In this document: positions 2 to 64,000 of the stretch, piece by piece
Layout of the letters: each line of letters begins with the position of its first letter
Numbering within the stretch: the first letter of the stretch is position 1
Assembly (NCBI RefSeq): GCF_001646785.1
Contig: NZ_LRRH01000037.1
Span: forward strand, 1-64,000
From: Rhodococcus phenolicus
Lineage (GTDB): Bacteria; Actinomycetota; Actinomycetes; Mycobacteriales; Mycobacteriaceae
Reading direction: 5' to 3'
DNA length: 64,000 nt
The notes under the pieces: model-generated
Told to the model about the DNA's origin: nothing
Databases searched by the model: none
The model's input: only the letters and a program-made list of their open reading frames with translations
Program-made: the position numbers and the translations under genes

Positions 2-520
2 AACGCCGCCGATTGCACCACCGCAGAAGCGCTGGCCGACGCCTTCCGGGTTTTCGACGGAGACGAGCACGCGACCGTGGCCGTTCTCCACGGCATGGGC
101 GGAACATTCTGCGCCGGTGCCGATCTGAAGTCGGTTGCCGGCGGGCTGCCCAATCGGTTCGCTCCCGACGGCGACGCTCCTCTGGGTGTGACACGGATGC
201 AACCGACGAAGCCGGTCATCGCCGCGATCGAGGGTCACGCCGTCGTGGGCGGGCTGGAACCGGCGGGGTGGGCGGACCTGCGGGTCGCCTCCGCCGATGC
301 GGTCCTCGGCCTGTTCTGCCGACGGTGGGGAGTCCCACTCATCGACGGTGGCACCGTCCGGCTTCCCCGCCTCATCGGTACGAGCCGGGCGATGGATCCG
401 ATCCTCACCGGCCGTCCCGTCGCGTCGGTGACCGCAGACGCACGCGCGGGCGCACAGCGTTTCACCGACGATGCCGGGCGCCACGGCGAGTTCACCGACC
501 GATCGATCGACCACCGGTAG
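2..520 (+). CDS. Enoyl-CoA hydratase (crotonase family), 5'-truncated by window, internal deletion
   Basis: Reading frame is open from the window edge, so the start lies upstream; 172 residues are visible. The crotonase core is clear: oxyanion-hole segment CAGADLK and the GGLE segment, followed by FCRRWGVPLIDGGTVRLPR, which is typical of one actinobacterial hydratase subgroup. After ILTGRPVAS the usual stretch with the EALAIGLVNRVV-type motif and the last helices is absent, and the sequence runs straight into GAQRFTDDAGRHGEF, which resembles the normal extreme C-terminus of this subgroup. I infer an in-frame deletion of roughly 70 residues near position 430. The product probably cannot fold or trimerise normally. 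It is followed 14 bp later by the AidB-like gene, so it may survive only as the leader of that operon. Confidence 0.75.
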   Translation, partial: NAADCTTAEALADAFRVFDGDEHATVAVLHGMGGTFCAGADLKSVAGGLPNRFAPDGDAPLGVTRMQPTKPVIAAIEGHAVVGGLEPAGWADLRVASADAVLGLFCRRWGVPLIDGGTVRLPRLIGTSRAMDPILTGRPVASVTADARAGAQRFTDDAGRHGEFTDRSIDHR

Positions 521-12316: not shown

Positions 12317-13606
12317 ATGTCGTGCATCGTGCAGGAGTCCAAGCGGCAGGCATGGCGATCCACAGCGACGGCTCTCCGTCACTCACCGGACCTCGCCCGG
12401 CTCACCACTGTCCGCTTCGCGAGCCAGTTCGGTGACGGACTGTTCCAGGCGGCCCTGGGCGGCGCGATCCTGTTCAATCCCGAACGGCACACCGATCCGG
12501 CCGCCATCGCCGCCGGGTTCGCAGTCCTGTTGCTGCCCTACTCGGTCGTCGGACCGTTCGCCGGTGCCCTGCTCGACCGGTGGGACCGACGCCTCGTGCT
12601 GCTGTGGGCCAACGCGCTGCGCGGCGCGTTCATCCTCGCCGCCGCCGCGGTCCTGCTGACCGGCGGCGGGGAGACCACGCTTCTGCTGTTGGCGCTCGCG
12701 GCGGTCGGCGTGAGCCGGTTCGTGCTCGCCGGGGTCTCCGCGTCGCTCCCGCACACCGTGGCGCAATCCTGGCTGGTACCCGTCAATTCCGTGCTCGCGA
12801 CCGTCGGCTCGGGGGTCTCGGCCGCGGGCGCCGCGGTCGCGGTGAGCACCATCGGGATCGTCGGCGCCGGTGACACGGGATCGGGAGTCGCGGTCGCGCT
12901 GGGGGCCTCGGGTTCGGTCGTCGCGGCGGCCGCCGCCGGAGGTTTCGCGAGGCACGGCCTCGGCCCGGACCGGACGTTGCCGCGCTCGGCACTCCGCTCC
13001 GTCGTCGACGGGCTCCGCACCGGCGCCACCGCGGTCTGGCAGGCCCCCGGCGTCACCGTCGCCATCATCGGAATCGGCACCCACCGAATCGTTTTCGGCA
13101 TCAACACCTTGATCATGGTCCTGGTGTTGCGCGGGAGCGACGCCGGCTCCGCGGCCGAGGGGCTCGCCGGATTCGGTGTTGCGGTCGCGGCGACCGCCGC
13201 GGGCATGCTCGTGGCCGCGATCGTCACCCCGATCCTCCTGCCCCGAGCCGGGCGGCCCCGCACGATCACCGGGGCACTGCTGACGGCCGCGATCGTGCAG
13301 CTGCTGTTCGTCACCCTCCTCACCCAGACCGCGCTGCTCGTCGCGGCTTTCCTGCTCGGTCTCGCCGGGCAGATCGTCAAGCTCTCGGGCGACGCCGCGA
13401 TGCAGATCGAGATCGACGACGCCCGGCGCGGGCAAGTCTTCGCACTCCAGGACACGGTGTTCAACATCGCGTTCCTCGCCGCGATCGCCGGTGCAGCCGT
13501 GTTCGTCGCCCCCGACGGCCGGTCGCCCTGCCTCGCCGTCACGGGCGTCGGGATCTATCTCGCCGGACTCGCCGGGGTGCTCGCGGTGCGCCGCCTCCGG
13601 ATGTGA
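12317..13606 (+). CDS. MFS transporter
   Basis: 429 residues with about 11-12 hydrophobic helices. The loop after the second helix (GALLDRWDRRLVLLWAN) matches the MFS A-motif region. A GTG four codons later is an alternative start; the ATG is preferred because GCGGGGG precedes it. The C-terminus is a short basic tail (VRRLRM). It follows the epimerase-like gene by 32 bp, so the two may be co-transcribed and controlled by the TetR protein. Substrate unknown; drug or metabolite efflux is the usual role. Confidence 0.82.
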   Translation: MSCIVQESKRQAWRSTATALRHSPDLARLTTVRFASQFGDGLFQAALGGAILFNPERHTDPAAIAAGFAVLLLPYSVVGPFAGALLDRWDRRLVLLWANALRGAFILAAAAVLLTGGGETTLLLLALAAVGVSRFVLAGVSASLPHTVAQSWLVPVNSVLATVGSGVSAAGAAVAVSTIGIVGAGDTGSGVAVALGASGSVVAAAAAGGFARHGLGPDRTLPRSALRSVVDGLRTGATAVWQAPGVTVAIIGIGTHRIVFGINTLIMVLVLRGSDAGSAAEGLAGFGVAVAATAAGMLVAAIVTPILLPRAGRPRTITGALLTAAIVQLLFVTLLTQTALLVAAFLLGLAGQIVKLSGDAAMQIEIDDARRGQVFALQDTVFNIAFLAAIAGAAVFVAPDGRSPCLAVTGVGIYLAGLAGVLAVRRLRM

Positions 13607-13670
13607 ACAAGCCCGGTTTGCTAGGTTCTCCTGGTTCGGCACACGAGTGCAGTTCCGTCAGGAGGCGTCC

Positions 13671-15170
13671 ATGTCCCGTCGCGCGGTGCTCACCTCACTG
13701 GCGCTCGCATCCCTGACGTTGCCGCTTCTCACGGTGCCTGCGAACGCCGAGGGCGCCGGTCCGGTGAACTCCTGCGGGGAGACCGGTTTCGATCCCGCCG
13801 CCGAGAAGCCCGGATCCGGGGGGCCGGTGATCGAGGTACCGCGCGTCCTGGAGTTGCCGGTGCCGTACCCGGAGTTCGTGCCGGTCGAGGTTCCGGGTCC
13901 CGCACCGGACACCACACGGGTGCCGCAGGCACCACTGCCCGCGGACCCGTGCACGGACCCGTGCCCGGAGACCGCGCCGGAATCCGATCCGATCGGGGAC
14001 GCCCCGGGAGGCAGCGGCTCGAGCGGTTCCGCCGGTTCCTCCTATCTCCCGCGCATCGAGATCGACCCGCGGCCCGAAACCATCCCGATCCCGATTCCCG
14101 GCGGGGAGGCCCCCGCGCCCCAGCCGGCACCGGTCCCGGTCACCCCGCCCGTCGAACCCGGACCGCCCGTCGGACGGCCGGGCACACCCGAGGTGGGCGC
14201 GGTCACCCTGGTGTCCCAGTTGACCGGTCCCGGCTCGGAGAACCGCACCGACGCCCGCTGGCAGGTCAGCGGCACCGACCTCGGGATCTTCTGGGAATCG
14301 GCGCCCGGTGAGGTGGCGGTCGCGTTCGGCGACACCTTCGGCCACGAGTGGGAACCTCCCGGCGGCGCGGGCGGCGACTGGCGCAGCAACGTTCTCGCAT
14401 TCAGCACCGACACCGACCTGTCCGACGGCATGACGATCGATTCGATGGTCCAGGACGGCCCGTGCCACGCCGCCGAGATCCTCGATTCGCGGCACGTGCA
14501 CAACTTCGAGACCACCGTCATCCCCACCTCGGGATTCGCGATCGGCGACCGGCAGTACCTCAGCTACATGTCCGTGCGGCGATGGAGCATCATCCCCGGC
14601 ATGTGGTACACGAACCTCGGCGGTATCGCGTGGTCCGACGACCACGGGCAGACGTGGACGAAAGATCAGCACGCCCGATGGGACAATCTGTTCGGCATCG
14701 GCCGGTTCCAGGTCGCGACGATGGTCCCGCAGGGAGACCACGTCTACATGTTCGGTACCCCCAACGGGCGCATCGGCACCGTCGGACTGGCCCGCGTCCC
14801 CACCGCGGACGTCCTGAATCCGACCGCGTACCAGTACTGGGTGGACGGCGAATGGGTGCCTGCCGCAGAGCATGTCGCGACCCCCTTGTTCGCGGGCGTC
14901 GCGTCGGAGTTGTCGGTGCGCTACGACGACGAACACGGTCGCTGGCAGATGGCCTACCTCGACCCGGTCGCCGGGTCCATCGTGCTCCGTCACGCCGCCG
15001 CCCCACAGGGCGAGTGGTCCGACCCGGCCGTTCTGGTGCGCACCTCCGACTACCCGAAGGCGTACGGCGGGTTCATCCACCCCTGGTCGGACGGCGACGA
15101 TCTGTACTTCACGATGTCCGAGTGGGACAGCTACAACGTCTACCTCATGCGGGCCCGCGTCACCGGTTGA
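13671..15170 (+). CDS. Secreted DUF4185-type protein with Pro-rich linker
   Basis: 499 residues with AGGAGG (13660-13665) before the ATG. A classical Sec signal peptide (SRRAVLTSLALASLTLPLLTVPANAEG) is predicted to be cut after ANA near residue 26. Residues about 45-180 are Pro/Gly-rich with several PxP runs and a Gly/Ser patch, probably a wall-spanning linker. The C-terminal 320 residues (from VTLVSQLTGPGSENRTDARW) look like the DUF4185 beta-propeller domain, with FGDTFG, WSDDHGQTW and the terminal DLYFTMSEWDSYNVYLMRA. In relatives this domain occurs in exported proteins, some thought to act on cell-wall glycans. A direct enzymatic role is not proven by the sequence. Confidence 0.8.
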   Translation: MSRRAVLTSLALASLTLPLLTVPANAEGAGPVNSCGETGFDPAAEKPGSGGPVIEVPRVLELPVPYPEFVPVEVPGPAPDTTRVPQAPLPADPCTDPCPETAPESDPIGDAPGGSGSSGSAGSSYLPRIEIDPRPETIPIPIPGGEAPAPQPAPVPVTPPVEPGPPVGRPGTPEVGAVTLVSQLTGPGSENRTDARWQVSGTDLGIFWESAPGEVAVAFGDTFGHEWEPPGGAGGDWRSNVLAFSTDTDLSDGMTIDSMVQDGPCHAAEILDSRHVHNFETTVIPTSGFAIGDRQYLSYMSVRRWSIIPGMWYTNLGGIAWSDDHGQTWTKDQHARWDNLFGIGRFQVATMVPQGDHVYMFGTPNGRIGTVGLARVPTADVLNPTAYQYWVDGEWVPAAEHVATPLFAGVASELSVRYDDEHGRWQMAYLDPVAGSIVLRHAAAPQGEWSDPAVLVRTSDYPKAYGGFIHPWSDGDDLYFTMSEWDSYNVYLMRARVTG

Positions 15171-53689: not shown

Positions 53690-54583
53690 GTGTCCACACT
53701 TGCCGTCACCCGCGACTCGGTCCGGCTCGAGGTCGTCGTCGAGGGTAATCCGCACGGTCCGACGATCGTGCTGGTGCACGGCTGGCCCGACACGCACGCC
53801 CTGTGGGACCACGTCGTGCCGCTCCTCGTCGGCGAATTTCGCATCGTGCGATACGACAACCGCGGTGCCGGGGCCTCGAGTGTCCCGTCGCGCGTGCGGG
53901 ACTATCGGCTCGAGGAACTGGCGCAGGACCTGTTCGCGGTCGTCGATGCGGTCGGCGCCGGCGAACCGGTGCACCTGCTCGGCCACGACTGGGGTGCGGT
54001 GGTGTGCTGGGAAGCGGTGTGCGACCCCGGCGCGGCCGGACGCATCGCCTCGTACACGTCGGTATCCGGTCCGAACCTGGATCACCTGGGCCTGTGGTTG
54101 CGCAGAAGCGTGCGCGCCGGCCGGTTCGCGGGGCCGCTCGCGCAGTCCGTCGCCTCGGCGTACACGCTGGCGTTCCAGCTTCCCGGCGTTCCGGTCCCGG
54201 TGCTGCGATGGGCGCTCGCCCGGAACTGGCCGCGGTTCGTCGGCCTGTTCGACCGCGCCGATCCGTCGGTGATCTCGTCGGCGCCGACCCTCGCCGACGA
54301 CATGGTGCACGGACTGAAGTTGTACCGCGCCAACATTCGTCGTCGGCTGGCCTCGCCGCGCGAGCGCGTCACCGACGTGCCCGTCCGGCTCGTGCTTGCC
54401 GGCCGCGACCGGGCGGTGCGGCCCGCCGGATACGAGGACACGGGCCGGTGGGTGCCGAATCTGCAACGAGAACACCTCGATGCGGGACACTGGTCGCCAC
54501 GGACCCACCCGGGTGACCTTGCCCGTCTGACCGGGGAGTTCGTCCGGCAGACGGTCGAGCCGGAGTTGGTGCGGCAAATTTGA
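53690..54583 (+). CDS. Alpha/beta hydrolase, EphD-like (epoxide hydrolase class)
   Basis: 297 residues from the GTG with GGAGG 4 bp upstream. Oxyanion motif HGWPD at residues 30-34, RYDNRGAGASSVP, nucleophile elbow GHDWGA with Asp100, and His267 in DAGHWSP. An Asp nucleophile points to epoxide hydrolase or dehalogenase chemistry. It matches the N-terminal half of mycobacterial EphD, including TSVSGPNLDHL and GRWVPNL, but lacks the C-terminal SDR domain of that fusion. It is inserted between dciA and gyrB with its own promoter-like region and an inverted repeat. Confidence 0.85.
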   Translation: MSTLAVTRDSVRLEVVVEGNPHGPTIVLVHGWPDTHALWDHVVPLLVGEFRIVRYDNRGAGASSVPSRVRDYRLEELAQDLFAVVDAVGAGEPVHLLGHDWGAVVCWEAVCDPGAAGRIASYTSVSGPNLDHLGLWLRRSVRAGRFAGPLAQSVASAYTLAFQLPGVPVPVLRWALARNWPRFVGLFDRADPSVISSAPTLADDMVHGLKLYRANIRRRLASPRERVTDVPVRLVLAGRDRAVRPAGYEDTGRWVPNLQREHLDAGHWSPRTHPGDLARLTGEFVRQTVEPELVRQI

Positions 54584-54681: not shown

Positions 54682-56778
<2,097 letters not shown>

Positions 56779-56790
56779 TGCTGCTGTGAC

Positions 56791-56834
56791 AGCAGGGTAG
56801 ATGTTGTGTCGTAAATCACAGCATTTACCCTGCT
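56791..56834 (+). terminator. gyrB terminator, 18-bp stem
   Basis: Arms 56791-56808 and 56817-56834 with an 8-nt loop. The two non-identical positions are G-T and T-G, so the RNA pairs along all 18 positions with two wobbles. Followed by ATTTC. It separates gyrB from the kinase operon. Confidence 0.85.
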
Positions 56835-57107
56835 ATTTCAGCGTGTCGGTGGCAGGCGCGATGGCGCGGCCACGTTACCCGTGAGTACTATCTGGTGCGA
56901 TCGTGTGTTCGCGATTGTCGATCGGGGGACGGCGGTGACCGGGGTGTTGGGAGGTTCTTCCATATTCCCTGTATGTCCCGCTAAGGTGCCCTCACCCAGG
57001 AACGCCTCATTCGACTGCATCCACGCGGTACCTCGCGCTCGATCGTCGATCGTGTCGTGTGGAATGCAGTGCGGAGTCGTGATCGGGGTGGAAGGAGAGC
57101 TTGATCC
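56835..57107 (+). promoter_or_regulatory. Leader and putative promoter of the conservon operon
   Basis: No gene. TTCCAT (56958-56963) and TAAGGT (56982-56987) with an 18-bp spacer form a weak sigma-A-like promoter about 120 bp before the kinase start. GGAAGGAG (57090-57097) is the ribosome-binding site. Confidence 0.45.
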
Positions 57108-60100
57108 ATGAGTGACGATTCGCCGCCCCGGCAGCGGTGGTGGAACATCGAGGGGTGGGGTCTTCGCTGGAAGGTCACCGCAGTACTCGCTATCCCGGTA
57201 ACGGTGGCGATGGTGCTCGGTGGTCTGCGCATCCAGGAGGAACTGTCCAACGCTGTCCACTTCTCGCAGGCTGCCGACCAGGTCGCGCACGTCCCTGCAC
57301 TCGTCGACTTCGGTACCGCACTCGGCACTCTCGCGGGCACGACCGCGGCGGGACTGAGCACGCCGGAAGAAGTCGCACGACTCGACGAAACACTCGAGAA
57401 GGTCCGTACCGTCTCGATGAATCCCGAGCTCGACCCGGTCATCGCGGCGGATCTGACCCGCGTGCTGGCCAGCGCCGAAGCTCTCCGTGACCAGATGAAG
57501 GCCGGCCAGGTCCCGATCACCGACCTGAACCAGCGCACCACCGAGATCCGCAGCGACATGTCCAACATCGTCGGCGCGATCGTCGACCCCATCGAGGACG
57601 AAGGGGTGTTGCTCGAGGGCACCCGCCTCGTCGATGCCTGGGCCACCCAGCGTTACCTGTTCGATCAGGTCATGGGTATGGTCGCGATCCTCCGCGACCC
57701 GAATCAGCCGGGCACCGAGCTTGTTTCCGCTTCCGGAGCCGAGCTCGCCATGCTCGAGACGCTCGCGCGTTCCTACCCGCTGGCCGACGGCCAGATCGAG
57801 GAACTGCGCAACCTGGTGAAGACTCGATCCGACATGGTGGACGCGGCCGCGGACGGGCCCCTGCCGCTTCTGAACCTCCGCACGTCGATGATGCGGAGCC
57901 TCGAGATCTACGGGTCGCTGATCCAGCAGGCCACCGAGGGCATCACCACCACCGTCGAGGACCGTGCCGGGGAAACCCGCTCGGCCGCGTTGCGCGACAC
58001 CGCGATCGTTCTCGCGACGCTTCTCGCCGCACTCGTGCTGGCGCTGCTGGTGTCGCGCTCTCTCGTCGGCCCGATCCGCCGGCTGCGCTACGGCGCCCTC
58101 AAGGTCGCCCGGCAGGAGCTGCCCGAGGCCGTCGACCGCATCAAGCTCGGCGACAACATCGAGGACATCGAGTTCACGCGCGTTCCGGTGCACACCACCG
58201 AGGAGATCGGCCAGCTCGCCCGCGCTGTCGACGACATGCACGGCCAGGCACTGCGTCTCGCCGGTGAGCAGGCACACCTGCGCCTGCAGATCAACGAGAT
58301 GTTCGAGACGCTGGCGCGGCGCAGCAAGTCGCTCGTCGAGCAGCAGCTCGGCCTCATCGAGCGACTCGAGTACGAGGAGAAGGATCCGGGCCGTCTCGAG
58401 AGTCTCTTCCGTCTCGACCACCTCGCGGCCCGTATGCGCCGCAACGGCGACAACCTCCTGATTCTCTCCGGCACCCGGGTGCGTCGCGGCCATTCCGCAC
58501 CGGTTCAGCTCGGCGACATCCTCCGCGCGGCGATGTCCGAAGTCGAGGACTACCAGCGCGTCCAGATCGGCTCGACGCCGGACGGCGCGCTCAGCGGTGC
58601 CGTGGCGACCGACATCGTCCACCTGCTCGCCGAGCTCGTCGACAACTCGCTGCGCGCATCTCCGCCGGACAGCAACGTCACGTTCAGTTTCGCGCGTGCC
58701 GTCGACGGTGGTCTGCTCGTCGAAATCGCCGACCGCGGAATCGGTATCCCCGCCGAGGAACTCGACGTGATCAACCACCGCCTGTCCCAGGGCGGCGAGG
58801 TCGGTCCCGACTCGGCGCGTCACATGGGTCTGTTCGTGGTGTCGCGGCTCGCGGACCGGCACGGTCTCACCGTGCGGCTGCGTCCGACCTTCGACACCGC
58901 GCGCAACCCCGGTATCACCGCAAGCGTGCACATCCCGGACGTTCTGCTCGTCTCGCCGCTTGCGCTGTCTCAGACGGGTCCGCAGCCGTGGCGCGGCGCC
59001 GAAATGCAGGACGACTTCCAGGAACAGCCGGCGCTCCCGCGCCCGGAGCGGGAGACGCCGCAACTACCGGCCTCGGCGCGGCACGGAAACGCGTCGGGCG
59101 AGATCCCGCAGGCCCGTCCCGCGATCTCCGGCGAGCTTCCGGCTGCGCCGGCCCGCTCGCAGGCGCCGTCGTTGCAGAAGCCCGAACAGAACGGTCACCA
59201 CCACGCGGCCAACGGCCGGCCGGTGGACGGGCTCCCGCAGCGTGAGCCCGGTGCGACCCCGGGTCTGCCGCGTCGCCAGCCCGGCGCGACCCCCGGTCTG
59301 CCGACCCCGCAATCGCCTACGGCGCCTTCACCTTCGCCGGCACCGGCACCCCGGATTCAGCCCGATGCGGCCGCGGCGCTGGCTTCTGCGCTCCCGTCGC
59401 GTCAGCGGCCGCCGGTCGAGCCGGATCAGGAACGAACGGCGGTCACGCCGAGCATTTCCGATTCGGGTCTGCCGCAGCGTTCGCAGGACGCAGGTCTGCC
59501 CCAGCGTCAGCCGGGAACCACGCCGGGTCTGCCCCAGCGTTCGGTCTCGCCGCAGTCTGCACCGCCGCAGCCTGTGTCCCCGCAGCCTGTGTCCCCGCAG
59601 TCCGTGCCGCAGCGCCAGTCGCCCCCGCCGGGTCTGCCGCAGCGTCAGCCGGGTGCGACGCCCGGCCTGACTCCGGCTCCGTCGGCGTCCGGTGCGACTG
59701 CGCCGTCGGTGTCCGAGCCGGTCGCCCCGGCACCGGTCGGTGGCCTGCCGCAGCGTTCGCAGGACTCGGGTCTGCCGCAGCGTTCGCAGGACGCAGGTCT
59801 GCCCCAGCGTCAGCCGGGAACCACACCCGGTCTGCCGCAGCGGCATGCCCAGCAGCCTGTGAGTCGGCCCGAACCGGTCGTCGAAGCTCCGGTCGATGCC
59901 GCTACCCGCGCGCCCGAAGGTGGACCGATCACCGGTCTGCCGCAGCGCCGGCCCGGCGCGACTCCGGGTCTGCCGCAGCGTGAGCCGGGAGCGACTCCCG
60001 GTCTGCCGCAGCGTCACTCGGCGCCGGGCGAACCGGCCCCCACCAGTGGTGCGGCAGCCTTCGCGGGTCCTTCGACGCAGTCGGCTCCGAGCATCGCCAA

Positions 60101-60590
60101 CGGCGACTCGGTGTCCCCGCACAGTGAGGCCAGCCAGGCCGCGCGGCATCGGTACCGGACGAACTCGGCGAAGACTGCCTCGTTCTTCCAGCCCCGTGGC
60201 GACACCGGAGCCATCCGGCGCCCACCTGCGGGCACGCCGATCTTCACCGACATGATGTCGGATTGGCTCGTCGACCCGACGAGTCTGCCGGAGGACCGAC
60301 GCAAGCGAGAATGGACGTCGCCGGCTGACGCAGGATGGCAAGCGGCACAGCGCGCGACCGAGGTTCCTGTGGAGGATCACACCACCGCAGGTCTGCCTCG
60401 GCGCGCTCCCGGTCACCGGCTGGTGCCGGGTGCGGTCGAACCCGCGGCACCCGCGGAACGGCCTGCCATCCGCAGGCGCGACCCGGAATCCATCCGGGCG
60501 AACCTCAGCCGTCACCAGCAGGGCGTCCGCAACGGCCGGTCTACTGTGAACGCGACCACACGTGAGAACGACGAACAGGGAGTTCGATGA
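57108..60590 (+). CDS. cvnA: Conservon sensor kinase (CvnA-like) with nitrate-sensing-type external domain and GLPQR tail
   Basis: 1,160 residues, ATG with GGAAGGAG 10 bp upstream. First membrane helix about residues 22-42; an external all-helical NIT-like domain (about 45-300); second helix about 305-325; HAMP-like segment; a histidine-kinase-type helix with H438 in [15 protein letters not shown]; and a GHKL ATPase ([39 protein letters not shown]). From about 630 to the end the protein is Pro/Gln/Arg-rich with many GLPQR units, closing with [15 protein letters not shown] and an [19 protein letters not shown] tail typical of CvnA. First gene of a four-gene conservon; its stop overlaps cvnB (ATGA). 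Confidence 0.9.
59229..60020 (+). repeat. GLPQR-coding repeats, including a 59-bp perfect direct repeat
   Basis: Repeating units encode GLPQRxPGxTPGLPQR-type blocks. Bases 59463-59521 and 59766-59824 are identical over 59 bp, and a shorter copy of the same unit stands immediately before the second (about 59746-59772). Purely coding, inside the kinase gene. Confidence 0.9.
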
Positions 60591-61003
60591 ACATTGATCA
60601 CGGATCCGACGTAACTCGTCCTTTGGACTGGTTGGTATCGAATTTCGCTCGCGAGGTTCCCGGTGTGTCCCACGCCGTGCTCGTGTCCGCCGACGGCCTG
60701 CTCATGGCTGCCAGCGCGCACCTTCCGGTCGACCGCGCCGAGCAGCTCGCTGCGGTGACGTCCGGTCTCGCCAGCCTGTCCAACGGCGTGTCGCAGCTGT
60801 TCGACGGCGGCGGCGTCCTGCAGTCCGTTGTCGAGATGCAGCACGGTTACCTGCTGCTCATGAGTGTCGGCGACGGCTCTCATCTGGCTGCGCTGACCGC
60901 GTCGGAGTGTGACATCGGACAGGTCGGTTACGAGATGGCGCTCCTGGTCGACCGCGTGGGAGCGTCGGTCGAGGCGACCCCGCGGGTCGGCCAGGGGTCC
61001 TGA
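60587..61003 (+). CDS. cvnB: Roadblock/LC7 domain protein (CvnB-like)
   Basis: 138 residues. Roadblock/LC7 fold: [31 protein letters not shown], then [19 protein letters not shown] and [18 protein letters not shown]. Such proteins act as regulators of small GTPases, as in MglB and Streptomyces CvnB. ATGA overlap with the kinase gene. Confidence 0.93.
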
Positions 61004-61016
61004 CGTCGAGGTGGCC

Positions 61017-61391
61017 ATGGAATCGCGCAAACCTGAGTCGGTTCCGGATCAGCCCAGTCTGGTCCGTCCGTACTCACTGACTTCGGGGCGGACGAGTCCC
61101 GCGGTCGAACTGGCGTTGGAGGCGTTGATCCAGGCGATCCCGGGTACCGATGATCGGGCCCGGGACCTGGACAACATCAACGCCACCATTTTGGAGTTGT
61201 GCAAGGAGTCCCCGTCGGTAGCCGAGATCGCTGCTCGGGTGGGTGTGCCAATCGGGGTGGCACGCGTCCTCGTCGCTGATCTCGTCGAGGCCGGACATGT
61301 CCAGATCTTGGCCACGCTCAAAGACGATTCGAGCGACGCCGAGCGTCGTGAGCTGATTGAAAGGGTCCTCAGTGGACTTCGCGAACTCTAA
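61017..61391 (+). CDS. cvnC: DUF742 protein (CvnC-like)
   Basis: 124 residues. SLVRPYSLTSGRTSP and a winged-helix-like segment (SVAEIAARVGVPIGVARVLVADL) then GHVQILA are the DUF742 signature. The usual end LERVLSGLREL is present. A GTG six bases earlier is an alternative start. Middle component of the conservon; its 3' end overlaps the GTPase gene by 20 bp. Confidence 0.92.
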   Translation: MESRKPESVPDQPSLVRPYSLTSGRTSPAVELALEALIQAIPGTDDRARDLDNINATILELCKESPSVAEIAARVGVPIGVARVLVADLVEAGHVQILATLKDDSSDAERRELIERVLSGLREL

Positions 61392-61959
61392 CGACCCCAA
61401 GCGGGTGACCTCGACCAAAATCGTGATCGCCGGCGGCTTCGGTGTCGGAAAGACCACGTTGGTGGGGGCGGTGTCGGAGATCGTCCCGCTGCGCACGGAA
61501 GCCTTGGTGACCAACGCCAGCGACGGCGTGGACAACTTGAGTGCTACGCCGCAGAAGGCCACGACGACCGTCGCCATGGACTTCGGTCGCATCAGCCTGG
61601 CCGAGGATCTCGTGCTGTACCTGTTCGGTACGCCGGGACAACATCGGTTCTGGTTCATGTGGGACGACCTCATCCGCGGCGCCATCGGGGCGATCGTTCT
61701 GATCGACACCCGTCGCCTGGACGAGAGTTTCGCCGCCGTCGACTTCTTCGAGGCGCGGAATCTCCCGTTCATCGTCGCGATCAACGAGTTCGACGATGCT
61801 CCGCGGTACCCGGTGGAGGACATCCGGCAGGCGCTGGCCGTCTCGGCCGAGGTTCCGATCGTCTCGATCGACGCCCGTGCGCGTGAGTCGGCGAAGTCCG
61901 CTCTGGTCACCGTCACCGAATACGCGTTGAGGAAGTTGCATCAGCCGGTGGCTCGGTAG
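61372..61959 (+). CDS. cvnD: Conservon small GTPase (CvnD-like)
   Basis: 195 residues from the GTG with AAGGG upstream. Walker A GGFGVGKTT at residues 21-29, switch-II-type FGTPGQHRFWFMWDD and the base-recognition motif NEFD in place of NKxD. Streptomyces CvnD proteins are membrane-associated G-proteins acting with CvnA-C. The stop overlaps the start of the following MHYT-like gene by one base, which ties that gene to the operon. Confidence 0.92.
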   Translation: MDFANSNDPKRVTSTKIVIAGGFGVGKTTLVGAVSEIVPLRTEALVTNASDGVDNLSATPQKATTTVAMDFGRISLAEDLVLYLFGTPGQHRFWFMWDDLIRGAIGAIVLIDTRRLDESFAAVDFFEARNLPFIVAINEFDDAPRYPVEDIRQALAVSAEVPIVSIDARARESAKSALVTVTEYALRKLHQPVAR

Positions 61960-62768
61960 TGGACGCTGACGTTCAGCTCTTCTCCATGGGGTCGTGGGTG
62001 GTGGTGCTGGCGTTCGCGACGTCGTCGATCGGTTTGCTGGTCGGGCTCGTGTGCGCCAGGAAGGCACGTTTCGCCGCCACCGAACGGAGGTGGCTGTCCT
62101 GGTTGCTGCTCGCCGCCTCGGCCGCCGGTGGCGTGGGGGTGTGGCTGGCGCTGCTGCTCGCCGTCGCCGGGTTCGGGGTCACCGGCAGCGTCGTGCGTCA
62201 CGATCTGCTGACCATCGCGTTCTCGCTGGCGGTGGCCCTGGTGAGCTCGTTCGTCGCGATGGTCGTCTCGGTTTCCCGGGGCGGGCATTCTCCCGGCCGG
62301 CTGCTCGGCGGCGGGCTGCTGTTCGGTGCCGGGATCTGCGTGGTGTTCCTGTCCCTCATGTGGTCGGTGCGACTGCAGGGCACGTTCACCTTCGACACGA
62401 CGTTCGTCCTCGCGACCGCCGCGGTGTCGCTCGTGGTGGCGTTCTCGTTCCTGTGGCTCGTCGAGGTCGCCGGTAGTTTCCTCCTGCGCCTGTGCGGCAG
62501 TGTCGTCACGGGCGCGGCGGTTCTCGGCGTCTACTTCCTCGGAATGGCGGCGGTCGACGTGACGCCGGACGCCACGATGCCGATGCCCGGCGGGACCGAG
62601 TTGTTCTCGGTCCTGTTCGTTGTGTTCGTCGTCGGCATGGTGGTCATCACGGTGCCCATCGTGCTGGCCCTCATGGACCCCGATCGGGTTGCGGCGCAAC
62701 TCGAGCGGGAGGCCGACCAGTGGGTGGCCGACCGCGGTGCGAACGAGGGCGGGGCCCGGGTTCCGTAG
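61959..62768 (+). CDS. MHYT-like seven-helix membrane protein lacking the MHYT histidines
   Basis: 269 residues from a GTG that shares a base with the cvnD stop. The N-terminus FSMGSWVVVLAFATSSIGLLVGL and the overall helix pattern match its neighbour at 62928, including GGVGVWLALLLAVAGFGV, MWSVRLQGTFTFDTTFVLA and GVYFLGMAAVDVTPDATMPMPGG. The three sites where the MHYT motif should be read LLLA, LSLMW and VYFLGM, with no histidine at any. It thus kept the fold but lost the putative metal ligands. Coupled to the conservon by overlap, so likely a signalling partner rather than a sensor (inference). Confidence 0.75.
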   Translation: MDADVQLFSMGSWVVVLAFATSSIGLLVGLVCARKARFAATERRWLSWLLLAASAAGGVGVWLALLLAVAGFGVTGSVVRHDLLTIAFSLAVALVSSFVAMVVSVSRGGHSPGRLLGGGLLFGAGICVVFLSLMWSVRLQGTFTFDTTFVLATAAVSLVVAFSFLWLVEVAGSFLLRLCGSVVTGAAVLGVYFLGMAAVDVTPDATMPMPGGTELFSVLFVVFVVGMVVITVPIVLALMDPDRVAAQLEREADQWVADRGANEGGARVP

Positions 62769-62927
62769 GCGTTCCGCGTCGCGACAGCCCGCCCCTGTTT
62801 ACAAACCGGTTGACTGGTATATGTTGGTCCCGCTGCCGCGGGGGGCAGAGGGCTGCAGCCCGTTTCGGCCGGTGTGGCACGTCACCACCATGCGGTTCAT
62901 ATTTTCGTGCCGAGGTCGAGGGTCAAG

Positions 62928-63761
62928 ATGTCGCACGAAATGCATCACTTCTCCATGGGAACGTGGGTGCTCTTTCTCGCTTACGCCACTTCTGTCATCG
63001 GTTCGTACGTGGGCCTGTCGTGTGTCCGTCAGTCGGCCAACGCGAAGGTCGGCCAGCGTACCGGCTGGATCGCCCTGGCGGCGGTCGCGATCGGTGGTAT
63101 CGGTATCTGGCTCATGCATTTCATCGGCATGATGGGGTTCGACGTCATCGGTTCGCCCGTCCGCTACGACCTGCCGTTGACGCTCTTCTCGGTGGTGCTG
63201 GCCGTCGTTGCGACCATGGTCGGTCTCTGGATTGCCGGTTTCGGGGACACGGTCCTCGACAAGATCCCGTCGGTGGCCCGGCTGCTGATCGGCGGAACGA
63301 TCATGGGCCTGGCGGTGAGCCTCATGCACTACACCGGCATGGCCGCGCTCCGCATTCAGGGCACCGTCGAACACGACACGGTGTTCGTGGTGGCATCGGT
63401 GATCATCGGTCTCGTCGCGGCGAACGCGGCGCTGTGGCTCGGCCGCGTCTCCGAGAAGTTCGTCGTGCGTATCCCGGCCGCGCTGGTCATGGGCCTCGCG
63501 GTCGTCGCGCTGCACTACACCGGCATGGCCGGTGTGGAGGTCACGGTCGATCCGACCGCGCCGAGGCCGGGAGGCATGACCGTCCTGTCGCTGTTGTTCC
63601 CCGCGTTCATCCTCGGCATCCTCGTGCTGGCCCTGTCGATCCTCGTTCTCGGCCTGACCCTGAGCCGGGCCGACGTCGAGCTCGAGGAATCCGTCGCGCG
63701 GTGGAGCGCCGGGAGCGAGAACACGACTCCCGCTGCTCCCGGCAACGTTCCGACCGTCTGA
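62928..63761 (+). CDS. MHYT-domain membrane sensor protein
   Basis: 277 residues from the ATG with GAGG upstream. About seven helices with three intact motifs: MHFIGM (H64), MHYTGM (H134) and LHYTGM (H196). MHYT domains are proposed to bind copper and sense gases such as O2, CO or NO. Here there is no GGDEF or kinase domain attached; the C-terminus is a 30-residue soluble tail (VELEESVARWSAGSENTTPA). A 159-bp gap upstream contains TTTACA and TATATG boxes, so it may have its own promoter. Paralogue of the preceding gene. Confidence 0.88.
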   Translation: MSHEMHHFSMGTWVLFLAYATSVIGSYVGLSCVRQSANAKVGQRTGWIALAAVAIGGIGIWLMHFIGMMGFDVIGSPVRYDLPLTLFSVVLAVVATMVGLWIAGFGDTVLDKIPSVARLLIGGTIMGLAVSLMHYTGMAALRIQGTVEHDTVFVVASVIIGLVAANAALWLGRVSEKFVVRIPAALVMGLAVVALHYTGMAGVEVTVDPTAPRPGGMTVLSLLFPAFILGILVLALSILVLGLTLSRADVELEESVARWSAGSENTTPAAPGNVPTV

Positions 63762-63838
63762 TCACCGGTCCCGCGGATTCCCGCGCGTAACGTGACGGAA
63801 GAAAGTGCCGTCCTTCTCGGTGTTCGCTGACCTGCACC

Positions 63839-63844
63839 TATAGA
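63839..63844 (+). promoter_or_regulatory. -10 element of a gyrA promoter
   Basis: TATAGA 74 bp before the gyrA start, in the 156-bp gap after the MHYT gene. It suggests that gyrA has its own promoter, independent of gyrB. Confidence 0.55.
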
Positions 63845-63917
63845 CTCGGGTGGTTGCGAGACGTCCACCGGGCGACGGTCCCGGGCAGACGTTCGAGCCG
63901 AGTAGAAGAAGGAGCTC

Positions 63918-64000
63918 ATGACCGACACCACGTTGCCGCCGGAGGGGCCGGGGCACGACCGCATCGAGCCCGTCGACATCCAGCAGGAGATGCAGAGCAG
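63918..64000 (+). CDS. gyrA: DNA gyrase subunit A, N-terminus (runs off the window)
   Basis: 27 residues visible from the ATG with GAAGGAG upstream. TDTTLPPEGPGHDRIEPVDI followed by QQEMQ is the usual N-terminus of mycobacterial-type GyrA. The catalytic tyrosine and quinolone region lie beyond the edge. Confidence 0.93.
   Translation, partial: MTDTTLPPEGPGHDRIEPVDIQQEMQS

Follow-up and report, generated by a model that had tools for sequence, protein, structure and literature searches.

A conservon accompanied by MHYT membrane proteins between gyrB and gyrA of Rhodococcus phenolicus

In Rhodococcus phenolicus, gyrB and gyrA are separated by a conservon, the four-gene actinobacterial G-protein module cvnA-cvnB-cvnC-cvnD encoding a membrane histidine-kinase-like protein, a Roadblock/LC7 protein, a DUF742 protein and a small GTPase, and by two downstream genes encoding proteins related to the MHYT family, hereafter M1 and M2. 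The window analysed here is a stretch of 64,000 nt (contig NZ_LRRH01000037.1 of assembly GCF_001646785.1, positions 1 to 64,000, forward strand). The core is a normal conservon; what is new is the class of accessory, its decay series and its link to the mfp conservon. On balance, we think it probable that the locus is a conservon equipped with a third kind of accessory, a seven-helix MHYT protein, which would dock on CvnA and in which M1 and M2 would have distinct roles.

Linkage of MHYT genes to conservons

The family survey covered 121 genomes, each representing one species of the GTDB family. An MHYT gene on the same strand starts no more than 118 nt downstream of cvnD at 28 of the 93 CvnD loci (28 genomes, eight genus labels) and, seen from the other side, 38 of the 61 places with an MHYT gene are just downstream of a CvnD. 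At the genome level, MHYT is found in 30/46 genomes with CvnD versus 1/75 without (odds ratio 139, p 1e-15, ignoring kinship), so that the co-occurrence which a first-pass annotation of the window had proposed to check was indeed found. The single exception (G056, locus L190) reads cvnA-cvnB-MHYT, and neither cvnC nor cvnD was found.

The association extends beyond the family. In the order, 56/249 genomes have an MHYT match, and nine of the 18 loci fetched (from 16 genomes) carry conservon genes, the MHYT gene being downstream of cvnD (L128, L130, L131 and L133), before cvnA (L132), divergent from cvnA (L135-L137) or part of a cvnB-cvnC-MHYT cluster without cvnD at a contig start (L134). Amycolatopsis sacchari and A. 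pithecellobii show the order cvnABCD-MHYT; about 5 kb from the conservon of the latter, on the opposite strand, there is a type II topoisomerase-like gene pair (L127:3-2163). In the class, 65/246 genomes have a match; outside the order, 20 loci were fetched, nine of them reading MHYT-cvnA-B-C-D and 11 having no conservon genes. All nine linked loci belong to family f33, with MHYT directly before cvnA in 9/9 (f33 has 20 genomes with a match, and these loci come from nine of them, taken from the best-scoring). Judged by gene neighbourhood, MHYT genes are thus shown to be co-inherited with conservons in three arrangements. In three operons MHYT has been retained while cvnD has been lost, L041 (G078), L134 (G227) and L190 (G056), the last also lacking cvnC; the genomes of L041 and L134 carry CvnD elsewhere.

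M1, M2 and a putative input to CvnA

M2 scores 128.2 bits against the Pfam family MHYT (PF03707), over the cut-off, in three stretches, and has kept all eight Met/His positions, whereas M1, with 18.0 bits, falls under the 21-bit cut-off. M1 is nevertheless 39% identical to M2 over residues 4-258, and its predicted model (pLDDT 86.7) has the family's topology, with seven long hydrophobic helices before a C-terminal helix. At the eight motif positions it reads ALVVFMYM, i.e. two Met and no His, leaving it without the set of binding residues. The first-pass annotation, which had described a histidine-less MHYT paralogue overlapping cvnD (by 1 nt) and an intact second MHYT protein, was therefore right on both. 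M1 is only 45-54% identical to most of its Rhodococcus relatives (84% to that of R. zopfii) where CvnD is 94-98% identical. It is under purifying selection and not a pseudogene, with ratios of non-synonymous to synonymous substitution rates of 0.23, 0.18, 0.20, 0.13 and 0.34 in five pairs. No solved relative of the MHYT proteins was found by sequence or by fold (best E-value 0.023), which does not amount to evidence for a new fold; a search for defence systems gave no match.

The difference between M1 and M2 recurs in relatives. All eight positions are kept in 0/20 first MHYT proteins at the gyr locus, a count that leaves out L051 (a draft with gyrA in four pieces, in which the first MHYT was not found), and in 13/13 extra copies there. 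They are kept in 14/20 first MHYT proteins downstream of other conservons, after reassignment of L136_1 to the divergent type; the six degenerate ones are from Speluncibacter (L035) and the Nocardia group (L036-L040). The f33 copies keep all eight positions in 9/9, and the unlinked copies in 10/15, their three His being present in 15/15. Eight near-identical named loci and L047 are excluded from this comparison, and the MHYT tree further excludes seven loci and L051. In that tree rows cluster by class far beyond shuffled labels; M2, M3 and unlinked Rhodococcus copies form one clade (support 99) adjoining the M1 clade (94 with Speluncibacter), and the simplest account of this placement would be an old duplication followed by residue loss in one copy, with uncertain rooting given the fast-evolving M1 rows. 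A C-terminal PDR-type tail was considered as a mark of first MHYT proteins (17/21 gyr rows, 5/21 other first rows and 0/33 others; L011, L013 and L014 read APDR yet escape the pattern, and L051 is a broken draft), but it may only reflect descent and was discarded as evidence.

The core proteins are those expected of a conservon. CvnA has two hydrophobic spans, a HAMP domain (25.3 bits, cut-off 25) and a HATPase_c domain (53.5 bits, cut-off 26.4), and CvnB (Roadblock/LC7), CvnC (DUF742) and CvnD (P-loop GTPase) follow in this order with tight spacing. M1 and M2 have no P450 or GAF match up to an E-value of 1 and are thus neither CvnE- nor CvnF-like. The first-pass annotation had also seen a nitrate/nitrite (NIT)-like external domain in the kinase. 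This holds only at the level of predicted fold: CvnA has no match to Pfam NIT (PF08376) at E <= 10, none in NCBIfam scans and a negative profile comparison (hhalign, 1.7%) with NIT-bearing CvnA, and it is after, and beside, these negatives that structure prediction gave an all-helical outer domain matching the NIT fold of NasR (PDB 4akk), to which it is only 12% identical. At the other end (about 59000-60500), the cvnA tail consists of long proline-rich GLPQR-type repeats, and overall CvnA length differs widely across relatives.

In Streptomyces coelicolor, according to the available text of PMC13343842 and PMC8510531, conservons with CvnF8 (GAF) or CvnE (P450) have the same cvnA-B-C-D order with the accessory adjoining the core, and the accessory is likewise proposed as a sensory input to CvnA. 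In the window, by contrast, the accessory is a seven-helix membrane protein rather than a GAF or P450 protein. According to the published rule, accessories belong to CvnA proteins without a NIT domain. Unlike this rule, MHYT occurs with Pfam-NIT CvnA in f33 (4/4 scanned) and at L132, L135 and L136, and in the window it accompanies a CvnA of predicted NIT fold missed by Pfam. The word MHYT is absent from the main text of both papers. CoxC, NbdA, MucR and DgcW share the seven predicted membrane segments and three MHYT motifs with the window proteins, M2 keeping the eight Met/His, but they fuse MHYT to LytTR or GGDEF-EAL outputs (available text of PMC11347149), whereas in the window MHYT is a separate protein. 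No publication was found on MHYT with a conservon, MHYT with Rhodococcus or a conservon between gyrB and gyrA, in a search outside which most subscription journals lay.

A model can be outlined in which CvnA would sense the outside through its NIT-fold domain and events within the membrane through its MHYT partner. By analogy with CvnF8, reported in the accessible part of PMC13343842 to bind and stimulate CvnA8, MHYT would dock on CvnA in the membrane and tune its ATPase/kinase state, which would act through CvnB and CvnC to switch the GTPase CvnD; the roles of CvnB as GTPase-activating protein and CvnC as guanine-nucleotide exchange factor are taken from the mfp literature (PMC9769811 and PMC13015309, as far as their available text goes). 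That the predicted interaction involves CvnA rather than CvnD is inferred from this precedent and because MHYT outlives cvnD in L041, L134 and L190. M2 would be a copper-dependent, gas-responsive input by analogy with CoxC, an MHYT protein that, in the available text of PMC11347149, responds to CO and needs copper. M1, without known binding residues, would be a fixed structural partner, or pseudo-receptor, with which M2 may pair or compete, and this is the least secure step.

Several observations weigh against this model. In the family, 23/61 MHYT places have no CvnD immediately upstream (two being conservon remnants), and MHYT is missing from 16/46 CvnD genomes and from 6/19 gyr-locus conservons and is hence dispensable. 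No conservon genes flank 20/38 MHYT loci fetched farther afield (9/18 in the order, 11/20 in the class), counts in which some flanks are truncated where a contig stops (e.g. L167). Three MHYT genes carried on plasmids (Embleya, Nonomuraea and Streptomyces) are unlinked. As g45, the largest genus label with matches, makes up 26/56 order genomes with a match and both its fetched loci are unlinked, unlinked MHYT may be commoner than the sample suggests. The degenerate first MHYT proteins at 6/20 other conservons imply that gas sensing is not a constant function of the accessory, and the putative division of labour between M1 and M2 is read from residue patterns.

The gyrB-gyrA locus and its control region

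Open reading frames and Pfam/NCBIfam matches agree on the order gyrB-cvnA-B-C-D-M1-M2-gyrA (Table 1), as described in the first-pass annotation, which was also correct about the overlapping genes and the proximity to oriC. The spacing is -4 nt for cvnA/cvnB, 7 nt for cvnB/cvnC, -35 nt for cvnC/cvnD and -1 nt for cvnD/M1 (TAGTG), followed by gaps of 159 nt (M1-M2) and 156 nt (M2-gyrA); alignment places the cvnD start at TTG 61357 or GTG 61372. The M1 start overlaps the cvnD stop in all ten loci of genus label g1 (Rhodococcus sensu stricto) measured. The genes dnaA, dnaN and recF, at 48-53 kb, and a DUF721 gene all lie 5' of gyrB. By CvnD, the best match with a name is R. zopfii (100% identity). 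Between the DUF721 gene and gyrB (53690-54583), a gene resembles, below cut-off, the N-terminal half of NCBIfam NF004514 (SDR family oxidoreductase).

Table 1. Features of the gyrB-gyrA interval in the window.
Feature	Position	Strand	Remarks
gyrB	54682..56778	+	Open reading frame; upstream flank; GyrB homologues in 120/121 family genomes
Hairpin after gyrB stop	56776..56848	+	Core stem 56791-56808 / 56817-56834; terminator-like, no T run; same place also folded in 21 relatives
CRP-like palindrome TGTGTCGTAAATCACA	56805..56820	.	9/10 of TGTGA-N6-TCACA; inside hairpin, 287 nt before cvnA
cvnA	57108..60590	+	Membrane histidine-kinase-like protein; HAMP 314-378, HATPase 500-610
cvnA outer domain	about aa 44-296		Predicted NIT fold; proline-rich GLPQR-repeat tail at other end
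cvnB	60587..61003	+	Roadblock/LC7 (Robl_LC7), class of GTPase-activating protein MfpD; PF03259, 83.2 bits
cvnC	about 61011..61391	+	DUF742, PF05331, 117.9 bits; start GTG 61011 or ATG 61017
cvnD	about 61357..61959	+	Small GTPase, PF03029, 108.6 bits; P-loop AGGFGVGKTT
M1	61959..62768	+	Degenerate MHYT protein, 7 helices + C-terminal helix; start overlaps cvnD stop
M1 helices	aa 13-37, 42-70, 83-104, 112-135, 147-170, 174-197, 215-239, 243-263		Predicted model
M2	62928..63761	+	Intact MHYT protein, 3 motifs, 8/8 Met/His positions
Conserved block TGACCTGCACCTATAGACTCGGGTGGTTGCGAGAC before gyrA	63828..63862	+	Probable gyrA promoter region
gyrA 5' end	63918..64000	+	NCBIfam GyrA; continues past window end

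Comparison of the interval across relatives, which the first-pass annotation had proposed, revealed a CvnD within 10 kb downstream of gyrB in 18/121 genomes, or 19/121 with G066, where the locus is split over two contigs (L020, L021), a number to which further split contigs could add. By genus label these are 7/7 in g1, 6/6 in g22, 4/6 in g24 and 2/7 in g10 (Prescottella group). Seven loci read have gyrB and gyrA adjacent, with gaps of 45-461 nt; within the same genera, too, adjacent pairs occur (L024, L164 and L165). Thirteen of the 19 gyr-locus conservons have MHYT (g1 7/7, with two or three copies, g24 4/4, g22 2/6 and g10 0/2), among others in R. zopfii, R. ruber, R. yananensis, R. coprophilus, R. 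opacus, R. koreensis, R. tibetensis and R. triatomae; those of R. oryzae, R. maanshanensis, R. spelaei and Prescottella defluvii do not. In one tree the gyr conservon rows are held together (support 92/78), while under a mixture model the best tree splits them, with p 0.32 in the approximately unbiased (AU) test for holding them together; the trees are at most compatible with the conservon having entered the gyrB-gyrA interval only once.

The strong terminator claimed for gyrB is a real hairpin (-45.1 kcal/mol versus a shuffle mean of -26.0, z -6.4), but it has no T run, which makes termination an inference, and it contains a palindrome resembling the CRP motif TGTGA-N6-TCACA (available text of PMC4117774). 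A site with at least 9/10 matches is present in 15/26 gyr loci against 0.2 expected from shuffles, an expectation too small for a palindrome located in a stem since the shuffles do not preserve hairpins; the fairer figure, which ignores kinship, is 15 sites in 8,777 bp versus 8 in 434,034 bp elsewhere. As a control, 26 upstream regions of other conservons gave one site; it is that of Speluncibacter, which has a conservon of the same clade at a place other than gyrB. The R. opacus group has no such palindrome, and in the window alone the number of sites (3 versus 1.1 expected) is not significant. This distribution suggests that the conservon operon may be under cAMP-CRP-type control. The palindrome is kept within a hairpin whose outer stem varies between species.

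Upstream of gyrA, where a fresh promoter had been claimed, there is a conserved 20-nt block, TATAGACTCGGGTGGTTGCG, with 19-20/20 matches in 20 of the 27 loci with a gyr conservon and 15-17 in the other seven. In the seven loci with adjacent gyrB and gyrA it reaches 8-10/20 in six and 18/20 in Speluncibacter (L166, gap 461 nt). The idea that the block is absent wherever gyrB and gyrA are adjacent is refuted by this last locus, and the block is therefore not tied to the conservon without exception. The single sigma-70-like match lies before M2 (62798-62825), one match being near the chance level of 0.4. Speluncibacter (L166, L055) combines the block in its gyr gap with a conservon of the same type elsewhere, with a CRP-like site and a degenerate MHYT. 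This could mean that the conservon has left the gyr locus or that the block is older. In R. ruber (L049, about 12400-13913) 1417 nt, rather than some 60, separate the block from the part of GyrA that is matched, for which reason this gyrA may contain an insertion near its start that preserves the frame, for instance an intein.

The mfp conservon and competing explanations

The Mycobacterium mfp conservon (MfpE-D-C-B-A; PMC13015309 and PMC9769811, in their available text) shares with the window the four core genes, including a CvnD-type GTPase, and the presence of a fifth. Its fifth gene, however, encodes the gyrase-binding pentapeptide protein MfpA rather than MHYT, which is the fifth gene in the window, and in the loci read mfp is not at gyrB-gyrA. 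When CvnA-D are concatenated, the trees nest four mfp-type conservons (L121, L126, L129 and L147) within MHYT-bearing clade I, as sisters to the MHYT conservon L031 (support 99/98 and 98/97 in two trees), and holding the MHYT rows of this clade together without mfp was rejected (AU p 0.0065 and 0.012, for a group picked after seeing the tree). In three of the four, mfpA directly follows cvnD; L121 (Mycobacterium sp.) has no MfpA-like gene within its 20.6-kb locus. From the nesting and the rejection, mfpA most likely took the fifth operon position from MHYT. G326, with genus label g29 (Mycobacterium, judging from its place in the tree), carries both an MHYT conservon (L128) and an mfp conservon (L129). 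Outside g29, L191 (G031:C1:3489000-3499000) is a second conservon without MHYT, whose cvnD is followed at a distance of about 1.5 kb by an MfpA-like gene. According to the available text of PMC13015309, mfpA is reported only in the Mycobacteriaceae of its dataset. Here, MfpA-like genes (E <= 1e-25) were found in 58/121 genomes and 18/31 genus labels and are not confined to Mycobacterium.

These findings bear on the idea of a conservon that controls DNA gyrase or supercoiling and owes its position to this function, just as mfp acts on gyrase via MfpA. A conservon is retained in the gyrB-gyrA interval of nineteen genomes, mfp nests among MHYT conservons with mfpA where MHYT sat, and genomes with any CvnD more often have an MfpA-like gene (31/46 versus 27/75 of those without, p 0.001, ignoring kinship). 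The R. phenolicus genome itself has two MfpA-like pentapeptide genes, G000:C157:655-1260 (L152) and G000:C3:114711-115238 (L153), 59% and 46% identical to mycobacterial MfpA, both on other contigs and unlinked to the conservon. However, the gyr-type clade is distinct from the mfp clade, and MfpA as a partner of the gyr conservon found no support across the 121 genomes: 6/7 g1 genomes lack it, and its frequency in gyr-conservon genomes is 13/19 versus 45/102 in the others (p 0.08). In addition, the hairpin, the CRP-like site and the separate gyrA block suggest separate transcription units, and the same genera partly have adjacent gyrB and gyrA. A role in gyrase control thus appears unlikely. 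Somewhat less likely still is the proposal of the first-pass annotation that the CvnD GTPase together with M1 and M2 makes up a single membrane complex for redox or gas sensing, with sensing at both CvnA (nitrate/nitrite) and MHYT. Part of it stands, namely the linkage of MHYT to conservons (down to the cvnD-M1 overlap), the predicted NIT fold and the intact M2, but M1 is without the binding residues, MHYT persists in operons without CvnD and M2 is set off from M1 by 159 nt, with a promoter-like site preceding it.

It could also be argued that MHYT merely happened to be downstream of cvnD in an ancestor and hitch-hiked neutrally, with M1 decaying, as its fast evolution and the absence of MHYT from 6/19 gyr loci would allow. 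We regard this as very improbable in view of the purifying selection on M1, the co-occurrence of MHYT with CvnD, the three arrangements, the retention in shortened operons and the M1-cvnD overlap common to the ten g1 loci. The accessory model, in which MHYT acts on CvnA, is therefore preferred. A far-reaching version of it, which we would put forward only as a long shot, is that MHYT is a widespread copper/gas receptor class on CvnA, that a ligand-less M1 and the intact M2 of Rhodococcus form a two-part receptor passing redox or gas status through the G protein to gyrase and that Mycobacterium swapped this receptor for the gyrase-binding MfpA at the corresponding place in the operon.

The inputs of conservons become directly testable, with a receptor class of known chemistry encoded with them in several families; in the available text of PMC11347149, copper and CO are shown for one member, and O2 and NO are proposed. 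For the mfp system, studied for its fifth gene mfpA, descent from a conservon with MHYT hints at the point where a sensory arm disappeared. In its turn, the lineage at the gyr locus is a natural series in which the binding residues were lost and the gene was kept, which could separate sensing from signalling. MHYT proteins, as gene neighbourhoods in other actinobacterial families suggest, travel with conservons and could supply one of the signal inputs that these systems lack so far.

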